Of a DNA stretch of 41,364 nt, positions 2 to 40,518 are shown piece after piece. A model generated the notes under the pieces. That model ran no database searches. It was not told the DNA's origin and saw only the letters and a list, made by a program, of their open reading frames with translations. Where the stretch lies: IMG/VR virus record IMGVR_UViG_3300030331_003482, positions 1 to 41,364 of that record. One strand, written 5' to 3'. The position numbers and the translations under genes were made by a program. The DNA comes from a virus. The number at the start of each line of letters is the position of its first letter. Position 1 is the stretch's first letter.

Positions 2-676
2 AATGGAACTGATGTGGGTAAATTTAAAGTTGCTAGTGCAGGTGTAAACCACGCTGTTCAAATAGGTAGTATTAGTAATAACGAAGTGCAATTTCACACT
101 AACAATAGTGAAAAAATGCGTATTACGTCAGCAGGAAACGTAGGAATAAACATAACAAATCCAGGTCAAAAACTTACTGTTAGTAGCGATGGTAGCGGTA
201 CTTCAGATGTAGTTAGAATTAATCATGGTAATGGTAGTCACACTGGCTATGGGTTAAGTATTAGATCAGGAAATACAGGTAATGCACTGCATATTGACGG
301 GACATCTGGTAGTGGTTTTGCAACAATAACATCAGCTTATAATTCAAATCCTTCGCTTCAAATATCTGGTGATGTTGTTGCTTTTGCTTCTTCTGATAAA
401 AGATTTAAAGATAACTTAGAAGTTATTAAAAATCCTATAGATAAATTACAACATTTAAATGGATATACTTTTGAATGGAATAACAAGCAAGATGTTTACA
501 AAGGAAAAGATTATGGAGTTGTTGCTCAAGAAGTAGAAAAAGTAGCTCCTGAGTTAGTAAACACTAGGTTCGATGGTTATAAAGCCGTTAAATACGAAAA
601 ATTAGTACCCTTATTAATTGAGAGTATAAAAGAATTAAAGCTTGAAATAGAAGAACTTAAAAAACAAATAAAATAA
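2..676 (+). CDS. Tail spike/fibre C-terminus with S74 intramolecular chaperone (5' partial)
   Basis: The reading frame is open to the left edge, so the gene begins outside the window; a GTG at 14 is in frame but need not be the start. The first ~120 visible residues are Gly/Ser/Asn-rich beta-repeat sequence typical of fibre shafts. The last ~95 residues match the peptidase S74 (endosialidase chaperone) domain: an SDKRFK stretch begins near base 392, with Ser and Lys five residues apart as in the autoproteolytic dyad, followed by a GYTFEW strand, a GVVAQEVEKVAPE helix and a C-terminal Lys/Glu coiled coil. In known S74 proteins this domain trimerises the spike and then cleaves itself off. The stop overlaps the next ATG (TAATG). 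It is probably the receptor-binding or depolymerising tail protein; the enzymatic part is not visible. Confidence 0.85.
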   Translation, partial: NGTDVGKFKVASAGVNHAVQIGSISNNEVQFHTNNSEKMRITSAGNVGINITNPGQKLTVSSDGSGTSDVVRINHGNGSHTGYGLSIRSGNTGNALHIDGTSGSGFATITSAYNSNPSLQISGDVVAFASSDKRFKDNLEVIKNPIDKLQHLNGYTFEWNNKQDVYKGKDYGVVAQEVEKVAPELVNTRFDGYKAVKYEKLVPLLIESIKELKLEIEELKKQIK

Positions 677-1290
677 TGACCTTACCAGCATCAGGATCTT
701 TATCAATTGGCGCTATAAATGTAGAGATGGGTAGAACTAATACCACACAAAATACAAGTTTATCACAATTGTCTGATGGAACTCATGGAACTATAAATGT
801 AGCTAATTTAAATGAAAATAAACCAGATGCATCTCTACCTCATGTTATGAGCGAGTTTCATAAGTATGAACATGTTGTTACTGTAAACGCAGTACCTGGA
901 TCTTTTAGTCAATTTTCTAGTAGTTCTCACAGTAGCGCAGGAACTATTACTGTTACTCATGCAGAACACTCTACTTTTTATGTTTCTTCAAAACCTAGTT
1001 GGGTTACTATAACTTCAGGAAACTTTGGAAGTAGTTTAAAAGATACTGGAGATGGTAACGTAACATTTAACGTGTCTGCTAATAGCGGTAGCGCAAGAAG
1101 TGGAAACATAGTAATAACTTATGACGTAGGCACAACAGGTGGAGGTTTAGGTGATGCAAACACTACAACTACAAGATCTGTTTCTGTTAGTCAAGCTGGA
1201 ACTTCTAGTGGAGGTGGTGGTAACCAAGGCGGTGGACCAGGCGGTGGTGGAGGTATACCACCAGGTGGTGGTGGAGGAGAAGCACCATAA
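676..1290 (+). CDS. Tail-associated protein with BACON-like domain and Gly-rich tail
   Basis: 204 residues. The N-terminus (LPASGSLSIGAINVEMG) resembles an opening seen in many marine phage structural proteins. Residues ~65-175 form a beta-sandwich with the BACON pattern: PSWVTIT near 104, then an SANSGSARSGNIVIT strand pair and a closing VSVSQAG. BACON domains are known mainly from Bacteroidota and their phages, including crAss-like phages, and are thought to bind glycans or mucin. The last ~30 residues are almost only Gly, Pro and a few charged residues, which would be a flexible tail. It overlaps the spike gene by one base, so the two are probably co-translated and may form one adhesion apparatus. 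The BACON call is by eye. Confidence 0.6.
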   Translation: MTLPASGSLSIGAINVEMGRTNTTQNTSLSQLSDGTHGTINVANLNENKPDASLPHVMSEFHKYEHVVTVNAVPGSFSQFSSSSHSSAGTITVTHAEHSTFYVSSKPSWVTITSGNFGSSLKDTGDGNVTFNVSANSGSARSGNIVITYDVGTTGGGLGDANTTTTRSVSVSQAGTSSGGGGNQGGGPGGGGGIPPGGGGGEAP

Positions 1291-13412: not shown

Positions 13413-16400
13413 ATGCCAGAAATAAAAAATAACTTTCTAAAGGGGAAGATGAACAAAGACCTCGATGAGAGACTTATACAAAAAGGTGAATATAGAGAAG
13501 CTCAAAACGTAAATATTATAGAATCAGAATCATCTGATGCTAGCGCTATAGAAAATATAAAAGGTAATGTTGCTAAAAATGTTTTAGCATCAATATCAGG
13601 TTCTCCAGAAGTTATAGGTTTTGTGCCTGACGTTAAAAATAAAAAAATATATTACTTTGTAACTAATTTTAGTGGAGGTAATAATTTTAATGATAATATA
13701 AGAAATATAGATAGAAGCACGTCGGCTGTTTGTAAAATAATACAATACGATACTAGTATACAACAGAACACTGTTCTTTTAGAAGGCAGTTTTTTAAATT
13801 TTAGTAAAAATCATTTAATAACTGGAGCGCAAGTTATAGATGATTTATTATTTTTTACAGATGATTATAACCAACCTAGAAGAATTAATGTTAAAAGATG
13901 TGTAGAAAGTAACTCAACAACCTACTACACTACTGAAGATGAAATAAGTATAGCTAAATATGCACCTTACACGCCTATACGGTTAGTAAACACAAATGGT
14001 GTTTGGGCTAATAGTAATAGCGTTTCATCAAATGTTGCTGCTGATAAAACTAATCAAAATATAAAATCAGATTATTTAAGAGAAAATTTTGTTAGATTTT
14101 CATATAGATATAAATATGAAGATGGAGAATATTCTTTGTTTGCACCGTTTACACAAATAGTTTTTGAACCTTTAAACAATGGTGAAATAAAAACACAAGA
14201 TGGTCAAAGAAACTCTACAACTAACGAGCCTAATGTTCCTATAAGCGCTCAAGATATTTTAAAGAAAACAAAAGTTGATTTGATGCAAAACGCTATCAAC
14301 AAGGTTATACTAAGAATACCTGTTCCTAATGCTGATGAAAGAGGACATACAACTGATGATTTTCAAAATCAATATACTAATCCATATAAAATATCTGAAA
14401 TACAAATAGTATTAAAAGAAGCAGATAGCAGAGCAATAAAAGTTGTTAAAAATATAAAAATAAGTGATACTAGTAATATATTTGAAACGTATACTATAAA
14501 GCCTAAAAGTGATGGTTCAACAACTTATTTTAGGCAAGTGTTAAAGCATATTTACAGATCAGAAAAACCTTTTCAAGTTTTACCAGAAGATCAAACTACA
14601 AGAGTTTATGATCAAGTACCTTTATTAGCTAAATCATTAGAAATAGTAGGTAATAGAGTTGTTTTTGGTAATTATGTAGAAAACTATGAGTTTCCTAAAG
14701 ATCAAGGTGGTAAAAAAGGTATGAACTACTTTGTTGGTTTATCAACAGCTAAATCAGATGTTGAACATAACAAAACTTTTGGTTTATTGCAAAACACATT
14801 TAATGCGTATAGACATCATAATATAAAGCAAAGAAGAACTTATCAAGTAGGTATTGTTTTTGCAGATAAATTTGGTAGGCAATCACCTGTAGTACTTTCG
14901 TCACATAGTGGTAATATAACAGACACATTTACAGTTGGACCTGACGTTGAAGATAAAAAAGCAAAATTTAACAGTAACACTTATAGTTGGAGCTCAAATA
15001 GAGTTGCTTATGGTCAAGCTTTACAAATAGATTTTCAAGATCCGGTTTTATTTGAAAACGTAAAAGACCTTTACAACGGTAACAAAGCAAGTGCTGATTA
15101 TAATCCACATGGATGGTATTCATATAGAATTGTTGTAAAACAAACAGAGCAAGAGTATGATAATGTTTACGGTAATTACGCTGCTAACTCATGGAGTAAC
15201 GTTGGAACAACAGAAACAAGGTTTGATGATAATGGTAACATAAGTAACACAGGATCAAACTCACAGATAATTGATGGTAGGCAAGACTTAACAGCTGGCG
15301 GTAGATCTTGGTTTACTCTATATGGTGATAATATAAACAAAGTGCCTAGAAACCCATCAGAACAAGATTTTACAAGAGAAGGTATATCAGGATCAGATGC
15401 TACGTTGTACCCTAAAGTAATACCACAAGATGGTGCTGGAAAATCAAAAATGGGTGATGTTAATCAAGAACCTGTAGATGTTATAAGTATTGGTACTGCT
15501 ATAGAACAAGGTTTATTTTCTGACAATCCCATAATAAAACCAACTACATTAAGCTTAGCTAACAAACCAAGAATATATAACTTTGTATATGGTAAAGACA
15601 GAAACCCTTTGGTTGCAGAATTACCTAATTTAAAAGTAGAACCAGTTGGTATTGATAATATAGACATTGATGTAACACAGTCAAATAGTAACACTACCGA
15701 TACACCTATTGGTTATCCAACAGATGGTAATATTGGTATAGGAGAAAACCCTCAATTTGGATCAGAAGGTTTAATGGTTTTTGAAACAAAACCTTTTGAA
15801 TCTAAAATAGATATTTTTTATGAAAGTGGTACTTGTGGTTTAGTTCAAGATCTTGATGATCAGTTAGAGGTTACGGAAAATACAGCTAATCCAGATGATA
15901 TTGAAATAAGTCCAGCTAATGGACAGTTTCCTGAATCAACTGCTATTGGTGGTACTGTTGTAACTGTTTCTGCTGATGATAACACAGGTTCTTCAAATTT
16001 AAGTTTTGCAATACAAAGCGCGTCAACAGGTAACGGTCAAGATGTTACAAGTAGATTTAATATAAACTCAAACACTGGTGTTGTTACTTTAGCAGGTGGT
16101 TTTAGAAGAACAGATACTACTGCTGATACAATAACTTTAAATGTTGCTGTTTCAGATCCTGACGCTGGAACTGCTTACTCAGCAAAAACATTAACTGTTA
16201 TGAACTCAGCGCCAACATCAACAGGTCCTTCTAGTGTTAATATACCTAACAATGCTGGTAATAATTATACTGTAGCAACTCTTACTATTAAAAACGGAAC
16301 TACAATAACTAGCGAAGATCACATTGGTTTATCTGTAACCCACGTATTAGGAAATACTAATTTTAATAATTATTTTAATACATCTATATCAGGTAATATA

Positions 16401-16871
16401 CTAACTATTAAAACAACTTCTCAATGGACTGTTTCTAATGCTAACACGTTTTTTGGAAACTCAAGCTCAAATAGAACTATTACAATTACAATAAATGATG
16501 GCTTAAGTACTAATAACACAGTTACTGATACTGTACAAGTAAATCAACAAACTACATCAGTTACTGGTACCTTAGATATTGGTCAAAACATTTCTGTTTG
16601 TGGTTATTGTGGAGCCTCACCAGGAACTTTTTATGCCGTTGCAGGTAGCGGTACAACGCCGACTGTTGTTAACGGTGAACTTAGAGTACATGCTGGTAAC
16701 CAAATATTTACAAATGTTGGTTTAAGTAATACAGCTTCTGCTGGTGATTATTTTTATGAAAACGATAGCGCACAATTTCCTGACGAAGCTTATTATTGTG
16801 TTAGTATTAATAGTAGTGGTCAAGTAACGGCTGTAAATTTAACTGAAGAATGTGATGATAACCAAGGATAA
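13413..16871 (+). CDS. DNA-stabilisation/tail nozzle protein, first part, with Ig/cadherin-like C-terminus
   Basis: 1152 residues. The opening (NKDLDERLIQKGEYREAQNV) matches the start of packaged-DNA stabilisation proteins of podoviruses (P22 gp10-like), which plug the tail after packaging. Residues ~1-800 are rich in strands and Asn/Tyr as in a beta-propeller. Residues ~820-935 look like a cadherin-type fold (FNINSNTGVVTLAGG, then VAVSDPDAG); a second Ig-like unit follows, then a Cys-containing end (VCGYCGA, YYCVS, EECDD). The next gene continues the family pattern, so a function normally on one long chain seems shared between two proteins. The Ig-like modules may face outward and bind host surface sugars. 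Confidence 0.7.
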   Translation: MPEIKNNFLKGKMNKDLDERLIQKGEYREAQNVNIIESESSDASAIENIKGNVAKNVLASISGSPEVIGFVPDVKNKKIYYFVTNFSGGNNFNDNIRNIDRSTSAVCKIIQYDTSIQQNTVLLEGSFLNFSKNHLITGAQVIDDLLFFTDDYNQPRRINVKRCVESNSTTYYTTEDEISIAKYAPYTPIRLVNTNGVWANSNSVSSNVAADKTNQNIKSDYLRENFVRFSYRYKYEDGEYSLFAPFTQIVFEPLNNGEIKTQDGQRNSTTNEPNVPISAQDILKKTKVDLMQNAINKVILRIPVPNADERGHTTDDFQNQYTNPYKISEIQIVLKEADSRAIKVVKNIKISDTSNIFETYTIKPKSDGSTTYFRQVLKHIYRSEKPFQVLPEDQTTRVYDQVPLLAKSLEIVGNRVVFGNYVENYEFPKDQGGKKGMNYFVGLSTAKSDVEHNKTFGLLQNTFNAYRHHNIKQRRTYQVGIVFADKFGRQSPVVLSSHSGNITDTFTVGPDVEDKKAKFNSNTYSWSSNRVAYGQALQIDFQDPVLFENVKDLYNGNKASADYNPHGWYSYRIVVKQTEQEYDNVYGNYAANSWSNVGTTETRFDDNGNISNTGSNSQIIDGRQDLTAGGRSWFTLYGDNINKVPRNPSEQDFTREGISGSDATLYPKVIPQDGAGKSKMGDVNQEPVDVISIGTAIEQGLFSDNPIIKPTTLSLANKPRIYNFVYGKDRNPLVAELPNLKVEPVGIDNIDIDVTQSNSNTTDTPIGYPTDGNIGIGENPQFGSEGLMVFETKPFESKIDIFYESGTCGLVQDLDDQLEVTENTANPDDIEISPANGQFPESTAIGGTVVTVSADDNTGSSNLSFAIQSASTGNGQDVTSRFNINSNTGVVTLAGGFRRTDTTADTITLNVAVSDPDAGTAYSAKTLTVMNSAPTSTGPSSVNIPNNAGNNYTVATLTIKNGTTITSEDHIGLSVTHVLGNTNFNNYFNTSISGNILTIKTTSQWTVSNANTFFGNSSSNRTITITINDGLSTNNTVTDTVQVNQQTTSVTGTLDIGQNISVCGYCGASPGTFYAVAGSGTTPTVVNGELRVHAGNQIFTNVGLSNTASAGDYFYENDSAQFPDEAYYCVSINSSGQVTAVNLTEECDDNQG

Positions 16872-33353: not shown

Positions 33354-33382
33354 AAAAAGGGGCATAAGCCCCTATTTTTTTT
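33352..33382. terminator. Bidirectional terminator between converging gene blocks
   Basis: A run of seven A (33352-33358), stem AGGGGC (33358-33363), loop ATAA, stem GCCCCT (33368-33373), an A and a run of eight T (33375-33382). Read on either strand it is a GC stem followed by a U-tract, so it can stop both the late transcript and the nrdA transcript. It overlaps the stop codons of both flanking genes. Confidence 0.92.
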
Positions 33383-35102
33383 AACCATCACAACTCAAAC
33401 AATTTGGATCCATTGCTTGATCCGCTATGTCTCCTCTCAGTACCGATTCGGTACGCATATAATATAAAGTCTTAATACCCTTCTTCCAGGCTTCTAAATG
33501 TATTTTATTAATCCATTTAGGATCTACCTGTGCAGGAAAAGCTAAGTTTAAACTTACGGCTTGATCTATATATTGTTGCCTTATGCCAGCCTGATTAACT
33601 AACTCTAGCTGATTTATTTCCTTGAAAGTTTTGAATACTTCTTTGATTGGTATGTCGTGATCTCCCAATGTAATTTTCTCTAATTGTTTTATACCTTGTA
33701 TTGAACCACCGTCTTTCAAAATTTGATCCCATATTTTATCTTTATTTAAATTATGTTCTTCTAATACTTCGACCAAAGTAGGGTTTTTACGTATAAACGT
33801 ACCCTTCGCACTTTGATCCGTAAATACATTAGCAGCCCATGGCTCGATTCCTGGGCTAATATTGCCAGCAAGTTTTGAATTAGAAACGGTAGGTGCAATA
33901 GCACGAAGGTGAGTATTACGGAATCCGGTACCCACACACCATAGCGGCTCACCATACGTCTCTGCAAGCGCCATACTAGCTCTTTCGCTTTCAATTTTAA
34001 TCTGACTAAAAATCCTTCTTGTTTCATATTGTGCTAGTAATCCTTCAAAAGGAAAACCTTTTTGCTGTAGATATGTGTGCCAGCCTAAAACACCTAAACC
34101 AAGTGCTCTACCTTTTTCTGCAGATCTTACAGCGTTTTCAAAGCCTCTTCTATTTTTGGCTTTCTGTATAAACTCTTCTAACACGCCATCTAAAAACCAT
34201 ATACTATCGTATATTAAGTTTGAGTCTTTCCACTCGTGATATTTAGCTAGATTTAAACTAGATAAACAACATACAAAACTATGATTTTCATCTGTGTGTA
34301 AAACTATCTCTGAACATATGTTTGTCATAAACACTTTCAGAGCATTATCCTTATACATACTAGGATTTTGTTTGTTAACATTACCCTTAAACATAATATA
34401 AGGCTCACCAGTTGCTTTACGTTTTTGTAGTAATTTACCCCATTTACGCCTTGCAACTTTATCACCGTCTCTAAGTTTTCTCATAAACTTATCACCTATT
34501 ATAGTACATTGATGTAAGTTAAGTGATTGTCTATTTACATCACCCTTTGGTTCTCTTATTTCTAACCAATCTTCCCAATCTTTATGATCTATATTTAAGT
34601 TAACTGATGCAGCTCCTCTACGTACAGCACCTTGGTTAGTAGCTAGTATAGTTGAATCATATATCTTACAGAAAGGTACAACACCATCTGATGTACCATT
34701 CATTGTAATTTCTGCACCTGACGGTCTGATCTGATTTATACCAACACCAACTCCACCACCGTGTTTAGCTAATAGCATCATTTCTAGGTTTTTAGTTCCT
34801 ATGTCTAATATGCTATCAGCAACATCAATACCAAAGCAAGATATTGGTAATCCTCTTTCAGTTCCTGTATTTGACAACACTGGAGAGGCAAGACATAACC
34901 AGCCTTTCCATATGTAATCAAAAAACGTATCAGCCATTTCTGGCTTTTTTAAACGTCTAGCTACAGTTGTAGCTACACGCATATAAGCTTCTTTAGGTGT
35001 TTCGCCGTTATATAAATAACCACCTGTTATAGTTTTTTTATAAACATCTGCGTCTGCCCACTCTGGGTAATCAACGCCTTTCTTCCATCTATTACTCCAC
35101 AT
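33381..35102 (-). CDS. nrdA: Ribonucleotide reductase class I, large (alpha) subunit
   Basis: 573 residues from the ATG at 35102, six bases below the nrdB stop; a TTG four codons earlier lies across the nrdB stop and is rejected. Catalytic features: Cys89 in LPISCFG and Cys278/279 in FVCCLSS as the redox pair, Asn261-Cys263-Glu265 in NICSE around the thiyl radical, LYYMRTES as the radical-transfer tyrosine pair, and a C-terminal CLSC for re-reduction. The N-terminal ATP-cone of cellular enzymes (~760 residues) is absent, so the enzyme should lack dATP feedback inhibition, as in other phage enzymes. It reduces ribonucleotides for phage DNA synthesis together with NrdB. It ends in the convergent terminator. 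Confidence 0.95.
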   Translation of the reverse strand: MWSNRWKKGVDYPEWADADVYKKTITGGYLYNGETPKEAYMRVATTVARRLKKPEMADTFFDYIWKGWLCLASPVLSNTGTERGLPISCFGIDVADSILDIGTKNLEMMLLAKHGGGVGVGINQIRPSGAEITMNGTSDGVVPFCKIYDSTILATNQGAVRRGAASVNLNIDHKDWEDWLEIREPKGDVNRQSLNLHQCTIIGDKFMRKLRDGDKVARRKWGKLLQKRKATGEPYIMFKGNVNKQNPSMYKDNALKVFMTNICSEIVLHTDENHSFVCCLSSLNLAKYHEWKDSNLIYDSIWFLDGVLEEFIQKAKNRRGFENAVRSAEKGRALGLGVLGWHTYLQQKGFPFEGLLAQYETRRIFSQIKIESERASMALAETYGEPLWCVGTGFRNTHLRAIAPTVSNSKLAGNISPGIEPWAANVFTDQSAKGTFIRKNPTLVEVLEEHNLNKDKIWDQILKDGGSIQGIKQLEKITLGDHDIPIKEVFKTFKEINQLELVNQAGIRQQYIDQAVSLNLAFPAQVDPKWINKIHLEAWKKGIKTLYYMRTESVLRGDIADQAMDPNCLSCDG

Positions 35103-35107
35103 ATTAT

Positions 35108-36067
35108 TTACCAAATATTTTCGAAATCTTCTCCTTCGTTTGCTTTGCTGTAATCTGTCGGCCTAATAGCAAAAAAGTCAGTATGGGTATGACCACCAGT
35201 AAGATGATAAAACCAATCAAGGTTTTTTGCTGCTTTTTTGTCGTAGTCGAAGAGTTCTTTATATCCGAGCTCTTTAAGTTTTTCATTTGTTCTTCTTCTT
35301 ATAAATTGTTTTAAATCGTATTTAGTTAAATTTTCTAAATCACCCATTTCAAACATTTTATCTATATACTTTTCTTCTAGCTCTAACATTGTCATAGCAG
35401 CGTCTTCTATATGTGGTTGACAAGTTTTTCTAAGAAAATCTTTTTCTTCACACATATGGTTAAACAACCTACAACCCATTTTACTATGTAATGATTCATC
35501 TCTTACAGACCATTTCATTTGTTGACCAATGCCTTTAAGTAAATTGCGTAGCTGAAAACTATATAACACTGCGAAAGCAGAGTATAAACTAACACCTTCA
35601 GCAAAAGCGCTAAATACAGCTAATGATTTACCTATTTCAACAGGATCACTACCATCATAACTTACTAGATTATCAAATCGTTCAGCGGTTGCTGGCTCGT
35701 GTAAAAACGCTTCAAAGTTTTCAAGCCCGAGAGTTTCATTTAAATAACTATAAGCTACAGCGTGTATTGTTTCTTGACTTCCAAACATCATAGCCATTTG
35801 TTGTATTTCATGTTTAGGAAACCAACCTACAACTTTCTGAGTCCAGTAATCTGATACTGCACATTCAGTTTGAGCAAAGCCTAGTAGTATATTTCCTACT
35901 AAATTTTTTTCTGCATCAGTTAGTTTTTCGTTCCAGTCTTTTACGTCACCTGACATAGGTATTTCTGTGTGTAGCCAAAAAGCTTGAGCTTGTTTCAACC
36001 AACCCTCGTTATAATACTCAGGGTACTCAAAAGGTTTATATGCTATTCTGTTATCAAATAATCCCAT
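35108..36067 (-). CDS. nrdB: Ribonucleotide reductase class I, small (beta) subunit
   Basis: 319 residues. Metal ligands at family spacing: Glu68, Glu99, His102, Glu157, Glu191 and His194; radical Tyr106 is present in ETIHAVAY. The first ligand is Glu where E. coli R2 has Asp84; Glu here occurs in some subclasses. The C-terminal tail (EDFENIW) is acidic and aromatic as needed to dock on NrdA. It makes the tyrosyl or metal-based radical that starts catalysis in NrdA. nrdB precedes nrdA in one transcript, five bases apart. The metal (iron or manganese) cannot be told from sequence. Confidence 0.95.
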   Translation of the reverse strand: MGLFDNRIAYKPFEYPEYYNEGWLKQAQAFWLHTEIPMSGDVKDWNEKLTDAEKNLVGNILLGFAQTECAVSDYWTQKVVGWFPKHEIQQMAMMFGSQETIHAVAYSYLNETLGLENFEAFLHEPATAERFDNLVSYDGSDPVEIGKSLAVFSAFAEGVSLYSAFAVLYSFQLRNLLKGIGQQMKWSVRDESLHSKMGCRLFNHMCEEKDFLRKTCQPHIEDAAMTMLELEEKYIDKMFEMGDLENLTKYDLKQFIRRRTNEKLKELGYKELFDYDKKAAKNLDWFYHLTGGHTHTDFFAIRPTDYSKANEGEDFENIW

Positions 36068-36520: not shown

Positions 36521-36924
36521 TCTTTTTGATTTTGTGGTTTGTACAATGTAACATTAGGTAAATGTTCTTGCACGTACTTTTTAAACATCTTCCAACGTAA
36601 AGGAAAACTTTCATTTGCTCTACCTTTACATTCAATAATAAATCCCTTACCCATGAAGTCTGGTGTATAAGATATATTTAATATTTTTTTATTACCCCTA
36701 TCTTTATATTCACCTTTACCATTAGCGCATCTTTCATATGCTGAGGATTCGTAATCAAAACCTGGAAATATTTCGTATGTATGCCCTTCATAAACAGCTT
36801 GTATTCTAGCTTTTTTAAGAGCAACATGCATATACTTTTCCAAACCTGATGCAAAGGTTATCCCGTCGTAAGTAATTTTCTTACTTACAACAGGTCCTTT
36901 TTTTCTCCTAATTTTTCTTCTCAT
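36475..36924 (-). CDS. PD-(D/E)xK endonuclease, DUF1064-like
   Basis: 149 residues from the ATG at 36924; an earlier start at 36966 would overlap the preceding gene by 59 bases. Core motifs of a restriction-endonuclease fold: Glu29 in GLEKYM, Asp89 in SYTPDF, and Glu98-x-Lys100 in FIIECKG, followed by a helix FPLRWKMFKKY. The arrangement matches DUF1064 proteins of phages, thought to be junction resolvases or T7 endonuclease I analogues. The N-terminus is Arg/Lys-rich. In a replication operon it may resolve branches before packaging or degrade host DNA. Specificity cannot be read from sequence. Confidence 0.7.
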   Translation of the reverse strand: MRRKIRRKKGPVVSKKITYDGITFASGLEKYMHVALKKARIQAVYEGHTYEIFPGFDYESSAYERCANGKGEYKDRGNKKILNISYTPDFMGKGFIIECKGRANESFPLRWKMFKKYVQEHLPNVTLYKPQNQKECDETIRLIQKLKSN

Positions 36925-37132
36925 CCTCCAAACATTTTTTAGCAGCTTCAATGTACAACAGAGCATCCATTATCTCTTCTTGCACATCTGTTAAAAACAT
37001 ACATAAGCTTTTCTTACCTGTTTCTACTTCGTTACACATTGTTTGACCATATTTCTTTTGGCCAGTAATGCTACGATTATCCATCTTCCTTAGTACAGCT
37101 TGTACTATCTTATCTTTAGTTTTAATCTGCAT
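36908..37132 (-). CDS. Small all-helical protein, possibly MazG-related
   Basis: 74 residues from the ATG at 37132; a TTG three codons earlier is in frame but not preferred. The body reads VLRKMDNRSITGQKKYGQTM, then a helix with DVQEEIMDALLYIEAAKKC. The R-S-x-x-G-x-K-K-Y-G and E-E-I-M-D-A-L-x-Y elements recall short phage proteins in or near the all-alpha NTP pyrophosphatase group. It overlaps the MazG fusion gene by 11 bases, so it may be a partner or remnant of a second NTPase domain. Activity is uncertain because the full EExxE...ExxD set is not present. Confidence 0.55.
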   Translation of the reverse strand: MQIKTKDKIVQAVLRKMDNRSITGQKKYGQTMCNEVETGKKSLCMFLTDVQEEIMDALLYIEAAKKCLEDEKKN

Positions 37133-37913
37133 CTTTAACAAATGTTCCGTTAACCATTTTACCCTTTCGTTTTGATATAACGTTGTAAGCCTCAGCTATA
37201 CAAGTTTCAATATGTACGTTGTTTAAATGAGCTAAATTAGTTAGTACTACAACCATATCACCAATAGCATCAATAACTTCTGCTTGATCTTTTTCTAGTG
37301 TAGCTTTAGCTAGCTCACCCATTTCTTCTTGTAATTTGATTAATTGAGTTTTAGCGTCACCCTTGTCATATATGCCTCTTTCATCAGCCCATTGTCTAAT
37401 AAGTTCAAACATTTTTAAAGGTTTTTTAGAGCATTTAACAACTTTAGTTTCTTTTGTATTAGTAAGGTTTTCAGCAAATACTGCAAAAGCCTTATTGTAC
37501 ACATATGATCTATCGTTGTTAAACATAGATGTTTTTACATTTTTCATTATCCAGTCTATTGTTCTTGGATTAATTATAAAATCACCGTGATCCGTTGTCC
37601 ATTCGTAGCCGATCATATCAAACAACCTGCCTTTTAATTTATCTACTGGACATGGAAAAGTAGTAGTTTGTTCAGTCACATTTAAGTCCATCATAGTTTT
37701 TCTATTTAAGTTTTTATAAGGTACCATATCTACTCGGTAGCCATATTCTCGTTGTAGTGTTCTTTCTTTAGCTGATATATAATCAACGTCTTCAGAACTT
37801 TCTAGTATTTCATATTCACTTGGTGAATAACCTTGTTGAACTGTGACCCGGTTATTAAGGTCACACGTTACGCCAATTTTTTTACCAGGAATATGATATA
37901 AATAATACATCAT
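37122..37913 (-). CDS. GIY-YIG-like domain fused to MazG-type NTP pyrophosphohydrolase
   Basis: 263 residues. Residues 3-67 resemble a GIY-YIG unit: YYLYHI for the first motif, KIGVT for YIG, Arg22 and Glu50 (AKERTL) as the usual catalytic pair; Lys12 replaces the Tyr of YIG, so cutting activity is uncertain. Residues ~85-160 are of unknown type. Residues ~168-250 are a MazG-type all-alpha domain with EE-x-x-E (196, 197, 200) and EVIDAIGD (Glu212, Asp215, Asp219), which bind Mg and cleave an NTP to NMP and PPi. T4 dCTPase and many phage dUTPases belong to this superfamily. It overlaps the thymidylate synthase-like gene by four bases (ATGA), so the two are made together. Confidence 0.75.
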   Translation of the reverse strand: MMYYLYHIPGKKIGVTCDLNNRVTVQQGYSPSEYEILESSEDVDYISAKERTLQREYGYRVDMVPYKNLNRKTMMDLNVTEQTTTFPCPVDKLKGRLFDMIGYEWTTDHGDFIINPRTIDWIMKNVKTSMFNNDRSYVYNKAFAVFAENLTNTKETKVVKCSKKPLKMFELIRQWADERGIYDKGDAKTQLIKLQEEMGELAKATLEKDQAEVIDAIGDMVVVLTNLAHLNNVHIETCIAEAYNVISKRKGKMVNGTFVKDAD

Positions 37914-38551
37914 AATTTATCGTTATAAATATGCATGTTATGTGCGTGGTGATAATACCAACCAACTGGTATTTTTAATCTCTCTGCAACTAATTTTTGT
38001 AACATACTAAAACAGTATTGATCGTTACAGAAACCGTACCAGAGATCATTAGAACGCATATAAACAGACATATTAAGTTTATCATCAACAATTGTAAATT
38101 GAACAGCATACGTACAAGGGGTATCTTTCTTGTATTTGTCATGCTCTTTACAATCGTATATACTAATAGCAGCGTGTCTAGTTTCTTTATGTTTTATTAA
38201 CTTTTTGATAACATACTCTAACTGATTTTCACGTTGCCACTGCCAACCATAATTGCTATTAACTTCGCCTTTATTGTTAGCCATTCGCACCCATATTGGT
38301 GGTATTTTACCATATATTGCTCCTAGCTTTCTAATACTATTGTCGCCTGATAAATACCATTGCCACTCAGCTTCAGCGTAATCAAGTTTCCAATTACGAT
38401 CTTCATTTGTTATAACATTGTCTAATGGTTTTTCAATAGTAAAGCCACAGTTAAATATAGCTTTAGTATTATCAAAATCAACACCATTTTTTATTATATA
38501 ATCCCAAAGATAATTGTATGCGTGATTAGCGTTGTAAAATTTATTTTCCAT
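37910..38551 (-). CDS. Thymidylate synthase-fold pyrimidine C5 transferase, dCMP hydroxymethylase-like
   Basis: 213 residues. All main active-site residues can be placed, mostly at E. coli ThyA numbering: nucleophile Cys146 in TPCTYA, Arg166 and Asp169 in RSNDLW, His207 and Tyr209 in MHIY; Glu62 and Trp87 match ThyA Glu58 and Trp80. The position of ThyA Asn177, which selects dUMP, is Asp177 (GFCND). T4 dCMP hydroxymethylase has Asp at this site, so the likely substrate is dCMP. The chain stops right after HIY, about 50 residues shorter than ThyA and lacking its closing C-terminus. It lies next to the MazG fusion. Product could be 5-hydroxymethyl-dCMP (water attack) or 5-methyl-dCMP. Confidence 0.75.
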   Translation of the reverse strand: MENKFYNANHAYNYLWDYIIKNGVDFDNTKAIFNCGFTIEKPLDNVITNEDRNWKLDYAEAEWQWYLSGDNSIRKLGAIYGKIPPIWVRMANNKGEVNSNYGWQWQRENQLEYVIKKLIKHKETRHAAISIYDCKEHDKYKKDTPCTYAVQFTIVDDKLNMSVYMRSNDLWYGFCNDQYCFSMLQKLVAERLKIPVGWYYHHAHNMHIYNDKL

Positions 38552-38819
38552 ATTTATTATAATAATATAATTGATATTCAGCTACCTTTTGCCATATTCT
38601 AACTCTACCATAAACTTCAGGTGTTGAACCTAATAATTTTCTATTAGGATATTTACCCTTTTCTATGTCTATATGCCATATAGGTTCTCTCCATTTAGCT
38701 TGTCTTGGTGTTATTATTATATCGTTTTCCATACACCAAAGTCTAGCTTCTTCCTCTTCAGCTGTACGAGTATAACTACCCATACCATACTTCTTATTCC
38801 CATGGAAGGCCGCCGTCAT
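38541..38819 (-). CDS. Small phage protein, unknown function
   Basis: 92 residues from the ATG at 38819, overlapping the primase-helicase end by 26 bases; an in-frame ATG at 38783 would give 80 residues and no overlap and may be the real start. The sequence RTAEEEEARLWCMENDIIIT and a C-terminal YQLYYYNKYGK recall short marine phage proteins with a W-x-I-x-I core (here IWHIDIEKG). It overlaps the next gene by 11 bases. No motif suggests an activity; it is placed in the replication block. Confidence 0.6.
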   Translation of the reverse strand: MTAAFHGNKKYGMGSYTRTAEEEEARLWCMENDIIITPRQAKWREPIWHIDIEKGKYPNRKLLGSTPEVYGRVRIWQKVAEYQLYYYNKYGK

Positions 38820-40518
38820 TCTTCTCGTCTAATACATTAACTTCTGGTACAAACGAACCTGATTTAGGCTCCCAAGTAAAAAAGGCTTCACCACCATTTT
38901 CACCTAAGTTTTGAAACTTAACTTTTAATACTTTTACTTTAGTATTTTTAGCTTCATAATCTCTGTGTACCAATAAACCGTGATAACTAGCATCATACCA
39001 TTCACCACCACCTTTTATGTTATACATATTAGGTTCTACAATTTTACCGTTTTCTCTTGGCATTTTAGTCGGATGAGCTACTATAAATGTTAAGACATCA
39101 TACTTTTTACAGAACTGCTCTATTTTACCTAGATAGTCCATAGTATATCTATTAACATCATCTGACACTGCATTAACGTCTCTAACCTTATTGTAAGGAT
39201 CGATAACTAAGCATTTTATACCTTTACGTTTTACTAGCTCAGCGCCTTTACGTAGTATAGACTCTAAACTATATTTATCCATATCAATAAAATAAAAATT
39301 ATCATTTACATGATTAGAAACTTCTTTCCATTTACTGCCACCTATTTCACCAGGCGATGGCATATCACCCCAACATTTACGCATAAGTTTATGTGCATGT
39401 AAATATATTGGAGCATTTTCAGGGCTAGCAAATGCTGTTTTCCAACCATATAATTTATTGTAACCTACAACCATTTGATCTACAAAATCAGACTTACCAG
39501 ATGATGGTATACCAGTTACAGTAATAAATTGACCTGTATAAGTACTGAATATACTATCAAAATTAGGTAAACCAACTTGATAACCAGGTTTAAAACCATG
39601 CTTAACAAAGTCTTTTAAATCTGATTCTACGTTTTTTAATGTGGTTACATTTTCAAGTGGTACTTGCTGCGATGTGTGTATAGCAGAGCGCAACTGCTCT
39701 GACCCATACTTTATTAAATAATCGTTCGCATCTTTACAATCTTCAAAATCAACTAGATAACATATTTCAGCGCCTAACCTACGTATAAGCTCTTGCTTTA
39801 ACATAGTGCCAGGTTCATCAGCATCAACTGCTATAATTACTTTTGTTTTATCTTCAAAGTAATCTATACAATTATCTAAGTAATCTAAGTTATTGTTATT
39901 TAATGTAGCACCATTTGGAACTGATACAACGTTTCTTATACCAGCTTCATGTAATGATAAACAATCTATTTCACCTTCAACGATAACACATTCATCGTGA
40001 CCAACTATACTGTTAATATTATAAAATACTTTTTCAGCACCTTTATATAACTTAAAGTTTTTAGCACCATCACGGTACTTAATATTTATCAATTGGTTAC
40101 CAATGAAATAATTAAATTTAATTGTGTTCTCTTCCTTACCAGTTTGCGGCATAAACTCAGGACCCTCAGAGACGTTTAGATCTTCAAGGGTCGACTGAGA
40201 TATACCTCTAGACTTAAACCATTCTACAACTTTACTACTAGGAGCCTTGTGAGTTTTTGTAGAAAAACTCGGCATAACGTATTCACGCTCGCTGGATCCC
40301 TTACGCTTGTAAGTGTGTAGTTGATAAGTTGAATTACAGTTATGGCAAGTACCGAGACCACGTTCCCAGTCGTATGAAGAACATTTCTTCTTACGATTTT
40401 CAGGTTTCCTATCGTGAGAACACAAGGGACAAATCCCCTGTGTTTTACCCACGCTAAGATTATATTGATTGAACTCGTCAATCAAAAAGCCATTGATCTC
40501 TTTATCTTCTACTTGCAT
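38794..40518 (-). CDS. Replicative primase-helicase (T7 gp4-like)
   Basis: 574 residues. A zinc finger is formed by Cys30, Cys33, Cys58 and Cys61 (CPLC and CHNC). The TOPRIM primase part has VEGEID (Glu181, Glu183) and VDADEPG (Asp232, Asp234). The DnaB-like helicase part has Walker A GIPSSGKS (336-343), Walker B CLVIDPY (Asp440) and a motif H3-like AHPTK (His482), then KGGGEWYDASYHGLLV, typical of phage gp4 helicases. It unwinds DNA 5' to 3' as a ring and makes primers at the fork. It starts 9 bases after the SSB stop. The first ~100 codons have somewhat more GC than the rest. Confidence 0.93.
   Translation of the reverse strand: MQVEDKEINGFLIDEFNQYNLSVGKTQGICPLCSHDRKPENRKKKCSSYDWERGLGTCHNCNSTYQLHTYKRKGSSEREYVMPSFSTKTHKAPSSKVVEWFKSRGISQSTLEDLNVSEGPEFMPQTGKEENTIKFNYFIGNQLINIKYRDGAKNFKLYKGAEKVFYNINSIVGHDECVIVEGEIDCLSLHEAGIRNVVSVPNGATLNNNNLDYLDNCIDYFEDKTKVIIAVDADEPGTMLKQELIRRLGAEICYLVDFEDCKDANDYLIKYGSEQLRSAIHTSQQVPLENVTTLKNVESDLKDFVKHGFKPGYQVGLPNFDSIFSTYTGQFITVTGIPSSGKSDFVDQMVVGYNKLYGWKTAFASPENAPIYLHAHKLMRKCWGDMPSPGEIGGSKWKEVSNHVNDNFYFIDMDKYSLESILRKGAELVKRKGIKCLVIDPYNKVRDVNAVSDDVNRYTMDYLGKIEQFCKKYDVLTFIVAHPTKMPRENGKIVEPNMYNIKGGGEWYDASYHGLLVHRDYEAKNTKVKVLKVKFQNLGENGGEAFFTWEPKSGSFVPEVNVLDEKNDGGLPWE

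Follow-up and report, generated by a model that had tools for sequence, protein, structure and literature searches.

A predicted phage dCMP 5-hydroxymethylase beside a GIY-YIG-like/MazG fusion protein, in a putative cytosine-modification slot

To our knowledge, phage genomes in which cytosine is fully modified are known from few cultured groups. Within the thymidylate synthase (TS) superfamily the residue at position 177 selects the substrate, Asp going with dCMP and Asn with dUMP (PMC6400193, PMC5175136, PMC8670742). The change from Asn to Asp at this position alone makes ThyA a dCMP methylase; in metagenomes Asp177 goes with modified cytosine, and position 147 is the other top position (PMC8670742). 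Ser94, Tyr96 and Asp145 have been proposed as a signature of hydroxymethylation, and the dCMP hydroxymethylase of phage T4 (gp42) does not have the TS tail (PMC6400193). In cyanophage S-2L, MazZ supplies the base-modifying PurZ (PMC8342488), and the one cyanophage MazG that has been tested preferred dGTP and dCTP (PMC6850273).

The window analyzed here is a stretch of 41,364 nucleotides, namely bases 1-41364 of a viral record of 65,226 nt. On its minus strand the genes are arranged in the order primase/helicase (38794..40518), a 92-aa ORF (38541..38819), a TS-superfamily enzyme of 213 aa (37910..38551), a MazG protein of 263 aa (37122..37913), a 77-aa ORF (36908..37141), a DUF1064 protein, and the small and large subunits of ribonucleotide reductase, NrdB (35108..36067) and NrdA (33381..35114). 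The preliminary description had already placed nrdA and nrdB downstream in the same block, and this is the case. The primase/helicase forms the left border of the slot that is occupied by the TS-superfamily gene. Both small ORFs are conserved: the 92-aa ORF between primase and slot has a homolog in 65/80 loci and occurs in methylase-type loci too, while the 77-aa ORF after MazG (phrog_11184) has one in 78/80. The latter contains a GQKKYG...QEEIMDALLYIE pattern, which is reminiscent of small MazG-like proteins.

We predict that the 213-aa protein is a dCMP 5-hydroxymethylase (HM type), on the basis of its match to the TS superfamily, its residues and its fold model. The protein matches the Pfam family Thymidylat_synt with 7.7e-24. 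A phmmer search against solved structures ranked T4 dCMP hydroxymethylase (1.2e-18) and MilA (4.1e-16) above all thymidylate synthases, and a profile built from 37 relatives again found MilA (2.9e-24) and the T4 enzyme (3.4e-20) on top. The AlphaFold2 model (pLDDT 87.5) gave its best structural alignments with MilA and with enzymes acting on dCMP. The kinship to dCMP hydroxymethylases proposed in the preliminary description is therefore borne out by sequence matches and structure prediction alike.

A scan of viral contigs confirmed at least 596 relatives of the enzyme. The residues of the HM type were checked in 81 of these and then in 146 of the same type. Asp177 (codon 38021-38023) aligns with Asp179 of T4 gp42 and with Asn177 of E. 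coli ThyA, as had been claimed before, and is present in 146/146 HM relatives. Furthermore, Ser99 (38255-38257), Asp143 (38123-38125), the catalytic Cys146 (38114-38116), Thr147, Glu62, Trp87, Asp169, Arg125 and Ser167 are, like Asp177, invariant in 81/81, and so are the corresponding positions in the 146. The hydroxymethylase signature, with Asp143 three residues before the catalytic Cys and Ser99 two before a Tyr, was found in 81/81 and 146/146. The window enzyme also has the folate-type residues Glu58, Trp80, Asp169, Gly173 and Tyr209. The ratio of dN to dS against near relatives is about 0.08-0.15; together with the constancy of Asp177 this argues that the gene is a product of neither chance nor decay.

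The earlier statement that every ThyA active-site residue is kept except the one at 177 was right about Asp177 but too broad. Relative to E. coli ThyA the window enzyme also carries R127->H, W83->M, L143->Asp, H147->Thr and Pro92->Ser, and it has no C-terminal tail. These changes, together with the missing tail, indicate hydroxymethylation. At the second Arg with which TS-family enzymes bind phosphate (Arg127; residue 126 of the window enzyme), 122 of the 146 HM relatives have His and 24 have Gln; the enzyme of SPO1 likewise has Gln at this position. The HM proteins stop 4 to 7 residues past Tyr209, and exactly 4 residues past it in 78/81. The preliminary description had seen the short C-terminus as a reason for caution about activity; this concern is largely answered, since all relatives end there and the T4 enzyme does not have a TS tail either. 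A truncated or frameshifted TS gene can be ruled out, as the relatives end at the same place and in nearly all of them the next gene overlaps or directly follows. From these sequence comparisons, and from the roles of the residues tested in other enzymes, the 213-aa protein very probably converts dCMP to 5-hydroxymethyl-dCMP. Of the two products considered earlier, 5-hydroxymethyl- and 5-methylcytosine, the residues point to the former in the phage of the window; the latter is predicted for its sister phages (see below).

The similarity to T4 gp42 (1b49/6a9a) comprises Asp at 177, the Ser-x-Tyr and Asp-x-x-Cys motifs, the MRSND...GF.ND stretch and the absence of a TS tail. Both phages also encode an enzyme that removes dCTP, which in the window phage is a prediction. 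The two differ in that only 4 residues follow the last His-x-Tyr in the window enzyme, whereas 28 follow in gp42, and in that Arg127 is His in the former. In place of gp56 the window phage has the fused GIY-YIG-like/MazG neighbor, and no kinase or glucosyltransferase was seen. MilA shares the fold, Asp at 177 and the Asp three residues before Cys; the Lys/Ala pair that selects ribose, and a C-terminal domain of large size, are found only in MilA.

The closest cultured relatives are proteins of the Bacteroides phages BF503P2 and BF486P2, annotated as dCMP hydroxymethyltransferase, which are 46% identical over the full length and have the same signature residues. They differ from the window enzyme by a tail of 17 residues, and no GIY-YIG-MazG gene lies beside them; instead their vicinity contains a carbamoyltransferase, a P-loop kinase, a dUTPase and a second TS paralog. 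The carbamoyltransferase family acts on 5hmC (PMC8670742). The presence of carbamoyltransferase and P-loop kinase suggests that the same enzyme family is used there in a more elaborate pathway. In BF503P2 the two TS paralogs, carbamoyltransferase, P-loop kinase and dUTPase lie together (L084:10651-13927 and 16001-16681), and this stretch looks like a pathway of the 5-carbamoyloxymethylcytosine type in a cultured phage. A protein of Enterococcus phage nattely (L086:5995-6840; annotated thymidylate synthase/hypothetical) has Asp177, Ser-x-Tyr and Asp-x-x-Cys with a longer tail; from these motifs it is predicted to be another dCMP hydroxymethylase.

The gene of the MazG protein starts with the ATG of ...TTATGATG and shares four nucleotides (ATGA) with the stop of the 213-aa gene, in agreement with the four-base overlap reported before. 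Its MazG/PRA-PH domain covers about residues 167-263 (37125..37415, minus strand) and has both the fold and the acidic motif EExxE...(D/E)xxD, with E196, E197, E200, D215 and D219 invariant. We predict that the protein is a dNTP pyrophosphohydrolase that supplies dCMP. The proposed coupling of an Asp177 enzyme with MazG is supported by the relatives. The MazG gene adjoins the enzyme gene in 80/80 HM loci and in all methylase-type (MT) loci with room. When loci were anchored on MazG, an Asp177 enzyme was found directly upstream in 78/78, 68 of them HM type and 10 of the other type; among the 80 best-scoring loci, which are a non-random draw, none had an Asn177 enzyme and none lacked a TS gene. 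A link to cytosine modification, and not to one chemistry, is what one expects of a supplier that turns dCTP into dCMP.

In fold searches the matches to the MazG domain included DCTPP1, MazZ and MazG/HisE proteins, tied with each other. MazZ of S-2L (Z 9.6 to the window domain) is comparable in being a MazG-fold pyrophosphohydrolase that lies beside a base-modifying synthase and feeds it; it differs, as a member of the Z-genome triad, in being (d)GTP-specific and in having no GIY-YIG domain. The MazG domain of the window protein probably hydrolyzes dCTP to dCMP.

The preliminary description did not mention the N-terminus of the MazG protein. Residues 1-66 (37716..37913, minus strand) have a beta-beta-alpha-beta-alpha order with invariant K12, G14, R22 and E50, and this topology together with Arg22 and Glu50 makes them look like a GIY-YIG-type domain. 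Among 30 members, 12 matched T5orf172 and 6 matched MUG113, in each case weakly and below threshold, and the fold-search matches of the 263-aa protein fell on its MazG domain throughout. T4 endonuclease II is a nuclease that acts on unmodified DNA, and one idea is that the GIY-YIG-like domain might act in the same manner. Another is a homing-type activity that might favor replacement at the adjoining slot.

Together, these observations suggest the following pathway, to which we assign a probability of about 0.78 as a whole. As in T4 gp42, Cys146 would attack C6 of dCMP, and Asp177 would bind and protonate the cytosine. C5 would then receive the one-carbon unit from methylene-tetrahydrofolate. 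As a TS tail that could close off the active site is missing, water held and activated by Asp143 and Ser99 would quench the exocyclic methylene in place of hydride, giving 5-hydroxymethyl-dCMP and tetrahydrofolate. Hydrolysis of dCTP by the MazG domain would both feed dCMP to the enzyme and lower the pool of unmodified dCTP. Deoxynucleotides would come from the phage NrdAB, and the phosphorylation of hmdCMP to hmdCTP would be left to kinases of the host. As a result 5-hydroxymethylcytosine would largely replace cytosine in the virion and protect it against restriction. The analysis shows the sequence, its conservation, the fold and the gene context, and in this account catalysis, MazG specificity, base replacement and the anti-restriction role are deduced.

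Several features do not fit this pathway directly. Arg127 is lost, and no hmdCMP kinase (DNMK, AAA_28) is recognizable in the window's phage or its relatives. T4 requires its own hmdCMP kinase. Neither a carbamoyltransferase nor a family-2 glycosyltransferase, the one glycosyltransferase family searched, was recognized in the window's phage. The simplest reading of these missing follow-on genes is bare 5hmC made with the help of host kinases. A dCMP deaminase, ThyX and a family-A DNA polymerase were also not found in the window's phage. DHFR is absent from methylase and hydroxymethylase phages alike and does not separate them. These gene absences are weak evidence because the record has two gaps of 10 N and its completeness is not established. 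The gaps lie at 41365-41374 and 60136-60145; the first directly follows the window and splits an exonuclease gene. An 83-nt end repeat of the record was not found on direct check.

A TS fold can also bind flavin and oxygen, and the product is then 5-hydroxy-dCMP; RB69 and further phages with arabinosyl-hydroxycytosine use an enzyme of this sort. The RB69 ORF048c class makes 5-hydroxycytosine for arabinosylation (PMC13390438), and the solved flavin-dependent dCMP hydroxylase (9iqc, 9iqu) is nearly identical to RB69 ORF048c. It has the fold and Asp177 in common with the window enzyme, is likewise tail-less and uses dCMP, which for the window enzyme is a prediction; in the structural comparison it is tied with MilA (Z 22.8 and 22.1 to the enzyme model). 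By sequence profile, however, it lies far lower (8e-14 versus 2.9e-24 and 3.4e-20). The RB69 type furthermore has Ala for Trp80, Asn for the folate-binding Asp169, Val for Gly173 and Phe for Tyr209, all of which are kept by all HM relatives, and it has Glu in place of Asp143 and Thr in place of the signature Ser. Sugar genes of the arabinose type were not observed. Because the four residues lost in the RB69 type are kept, and because the profile is nearer to the folate enzymes, a folate enzyme is favored and a flavin-dependent hydroxylase is unlikely. Another reading is a methylase that gives 5-methyl-dCMP, like the Asn177Asp thymidylate synthase; Asp177 alone suffices for this in ThyA, and the slot of sister phages holds a predicted enzyme of this kind. 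These sister enzymes differ from the window enzyme in Val93, Leu143, His147 and the tail; in the latter the tail is missing, Leu143 is Asp and the Ser/Asp signature of hydroxymethylases is complete, so that we consider a methylase somewhat more improbable still.

Other readings doubt the substrate or the activity itself. The annotated families are named thymidylate synthase, and since no ThyX was found as a separate source of dTMP in the window's phage, the phage could lack a dTMP source of its own; the protein might then serve the thymidine pool by acting on dUMP, as a TS or dUMP hydroxymethylase, with MazG in mere house-cleaning. Neither hallmark of ThyA, Asn177 and the sealing C-terminal tail, is present in the window enzyme. 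Asp177 occurs in 146/146 relatives and in all sister enzymes, whereas the five nearest ordinary phage ThyA that were sampled all have Asn177; in T4 the D179N exchange reduces kcat by as much as about 3600-fold (PMC6400193). With no dCMP deaminase either, this reading is very unlikely. We attach just as little weight to a CMP hydroxymethylase like MilA, whose product would go into RNA or a small molecule. MilA ranks first by profile and is a top match by fold, but its ribose-selecting residues Lys133 and Ala176 (PMC5175136), at positions 126 and 167, are Arg and Ser in all HM relatives, as in deoxy-specific enzymes. Finally, the shortness of the protein and the replaced Arg127 could mean that it is inactive or repurposed, for example as a structural protein; with all catalytic residues invariant and strong purifying selection this is scarcely credible. 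A phage dCMP 5-hydroxymethylase hence remains our preferred explanation.

In a survey of the slot anchored on the primase, 67 of 79 typable loci contained the HM type, and in 12 the TS-superfamily protein was of another type, with 277-297 aa. With a further scan this MT set grew to 91 sequences (L161:1954-2787, L183, L193, L196, L215, L239, L254 and 84 more), which are full-length ThyA proteins. Asp177 is present in 91/91; the hallmarks Val93, Leu143, His147, Arg127, Trp80 and a full C-terminal tail were all present where checked, one partial sequence being without the N-terminal positions. In the tree the MT proteins nest inside ordinary ThyA and apart from the hydroxymethylases; their nearest sampled neighbors among ordinary phage ThyA are the five with Asn177 named above. 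From their residues we predict that they are natural dCMP methylases, which would make 5-methyl-dCMP in the sister phages. The MT proteins, and not the window enzyme, correspond to the engineered Asn177Asp TS (PMC8670742) and the dCMP methylase of the Xp12 group, with which the window enzyme shares Asp177. In Stenotrophomonas phage AXL1 (L255:6623-8334), which stood in for its genus-mate, the 5mC phage Xp12 (MT664984), an Asp177 TS lies beside a nucleotide (MazG-type) pyrophosphohydrolase. This pair may account for the route to 5mC in the Xp12 group, which the authors had left open.

The type of the slot changes 10 times on the tree of the MazG protein and 5 times on that of the primase; at least 4 changes are forced by well supported branches in the former and at least 4 are forced in the latter, while the exact counts from these FastTree phylogenies are soft. 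The primases of a hydroxymethylase locus (L024) and a methylase locus (L196) are 93% identical. A trace of 5mC deamination was sought in the GC3 of the primases, which did not differ between the two types (p 0.34); a small difference in locus GC runs opposite to the expectation from deamination. The sequence data are best explained by a cytosine-modification slot at the position bordered by primase and MazG, whose occupant has repeatedly been replaced by an enzyme of another lineage. A bolder proposal, for which we see slightly less than an even chance, is that in an abundant lineage of marine phages this one slot sets the chemistry of every genomic cytosine and was switched repeatedly between 5-hydroxymethylation and 5-methylation by gene replacement, while the dCMP-supplying MazG was kept each time. 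The GIY-YIG-like domain may drive the replacement or degrade unmodified host DNA, and opposing host defenses, restriction of plain C versus modification-dependent restriction of 5hmC/5mC, would select. No earlier account of an exchange between hydroxymethylase and methylase was found in the literature searched, which covered few subscription journals.

The window also encodes a GroES-like protein (2311-2856), and a relative encodes GroEL (L083:2940-4514). A BACON-domain protein (window 676-1290) hints at a Bacteroidota host, as do three relatives (L264, L267, L268) binned with MAGs of Flavobacteriaceae, Saprospiraceae and Sphingobacteriaceae; other bins of relatives (Aliivibrio, Halieaceae) conflict with this host. 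A weak match to pyrimidine dimer DNA glycosylase (PF03013) at L082:9019-9552 was just under the cut-off.

The enzyme itself is of a known kind; the conserved cassette with the fused MazG protein and the repeated exchange of the hydroxymethylase for a predicted methylase set the locus as a whole apart. The HM proteins are the smallest predicted dCMP hydroxymethylases in this comparison, and the MT proteins are candidates for natural Asp177 methylases of the ThyA type. The data also caution that the label thymidylate synthase in metagenomes may conceal cytosine-modifying enzymes. If our interpretation is true, modification of cytosine would be usual in a large group of uncultured marine phages. 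These phages would then constitute a natural experiment in which near-identical backbones differ in 5hmC versus 5mC at one gene, and the selection of phage base chemistry by restriction and by modification-dependent defenses would become directly testable.
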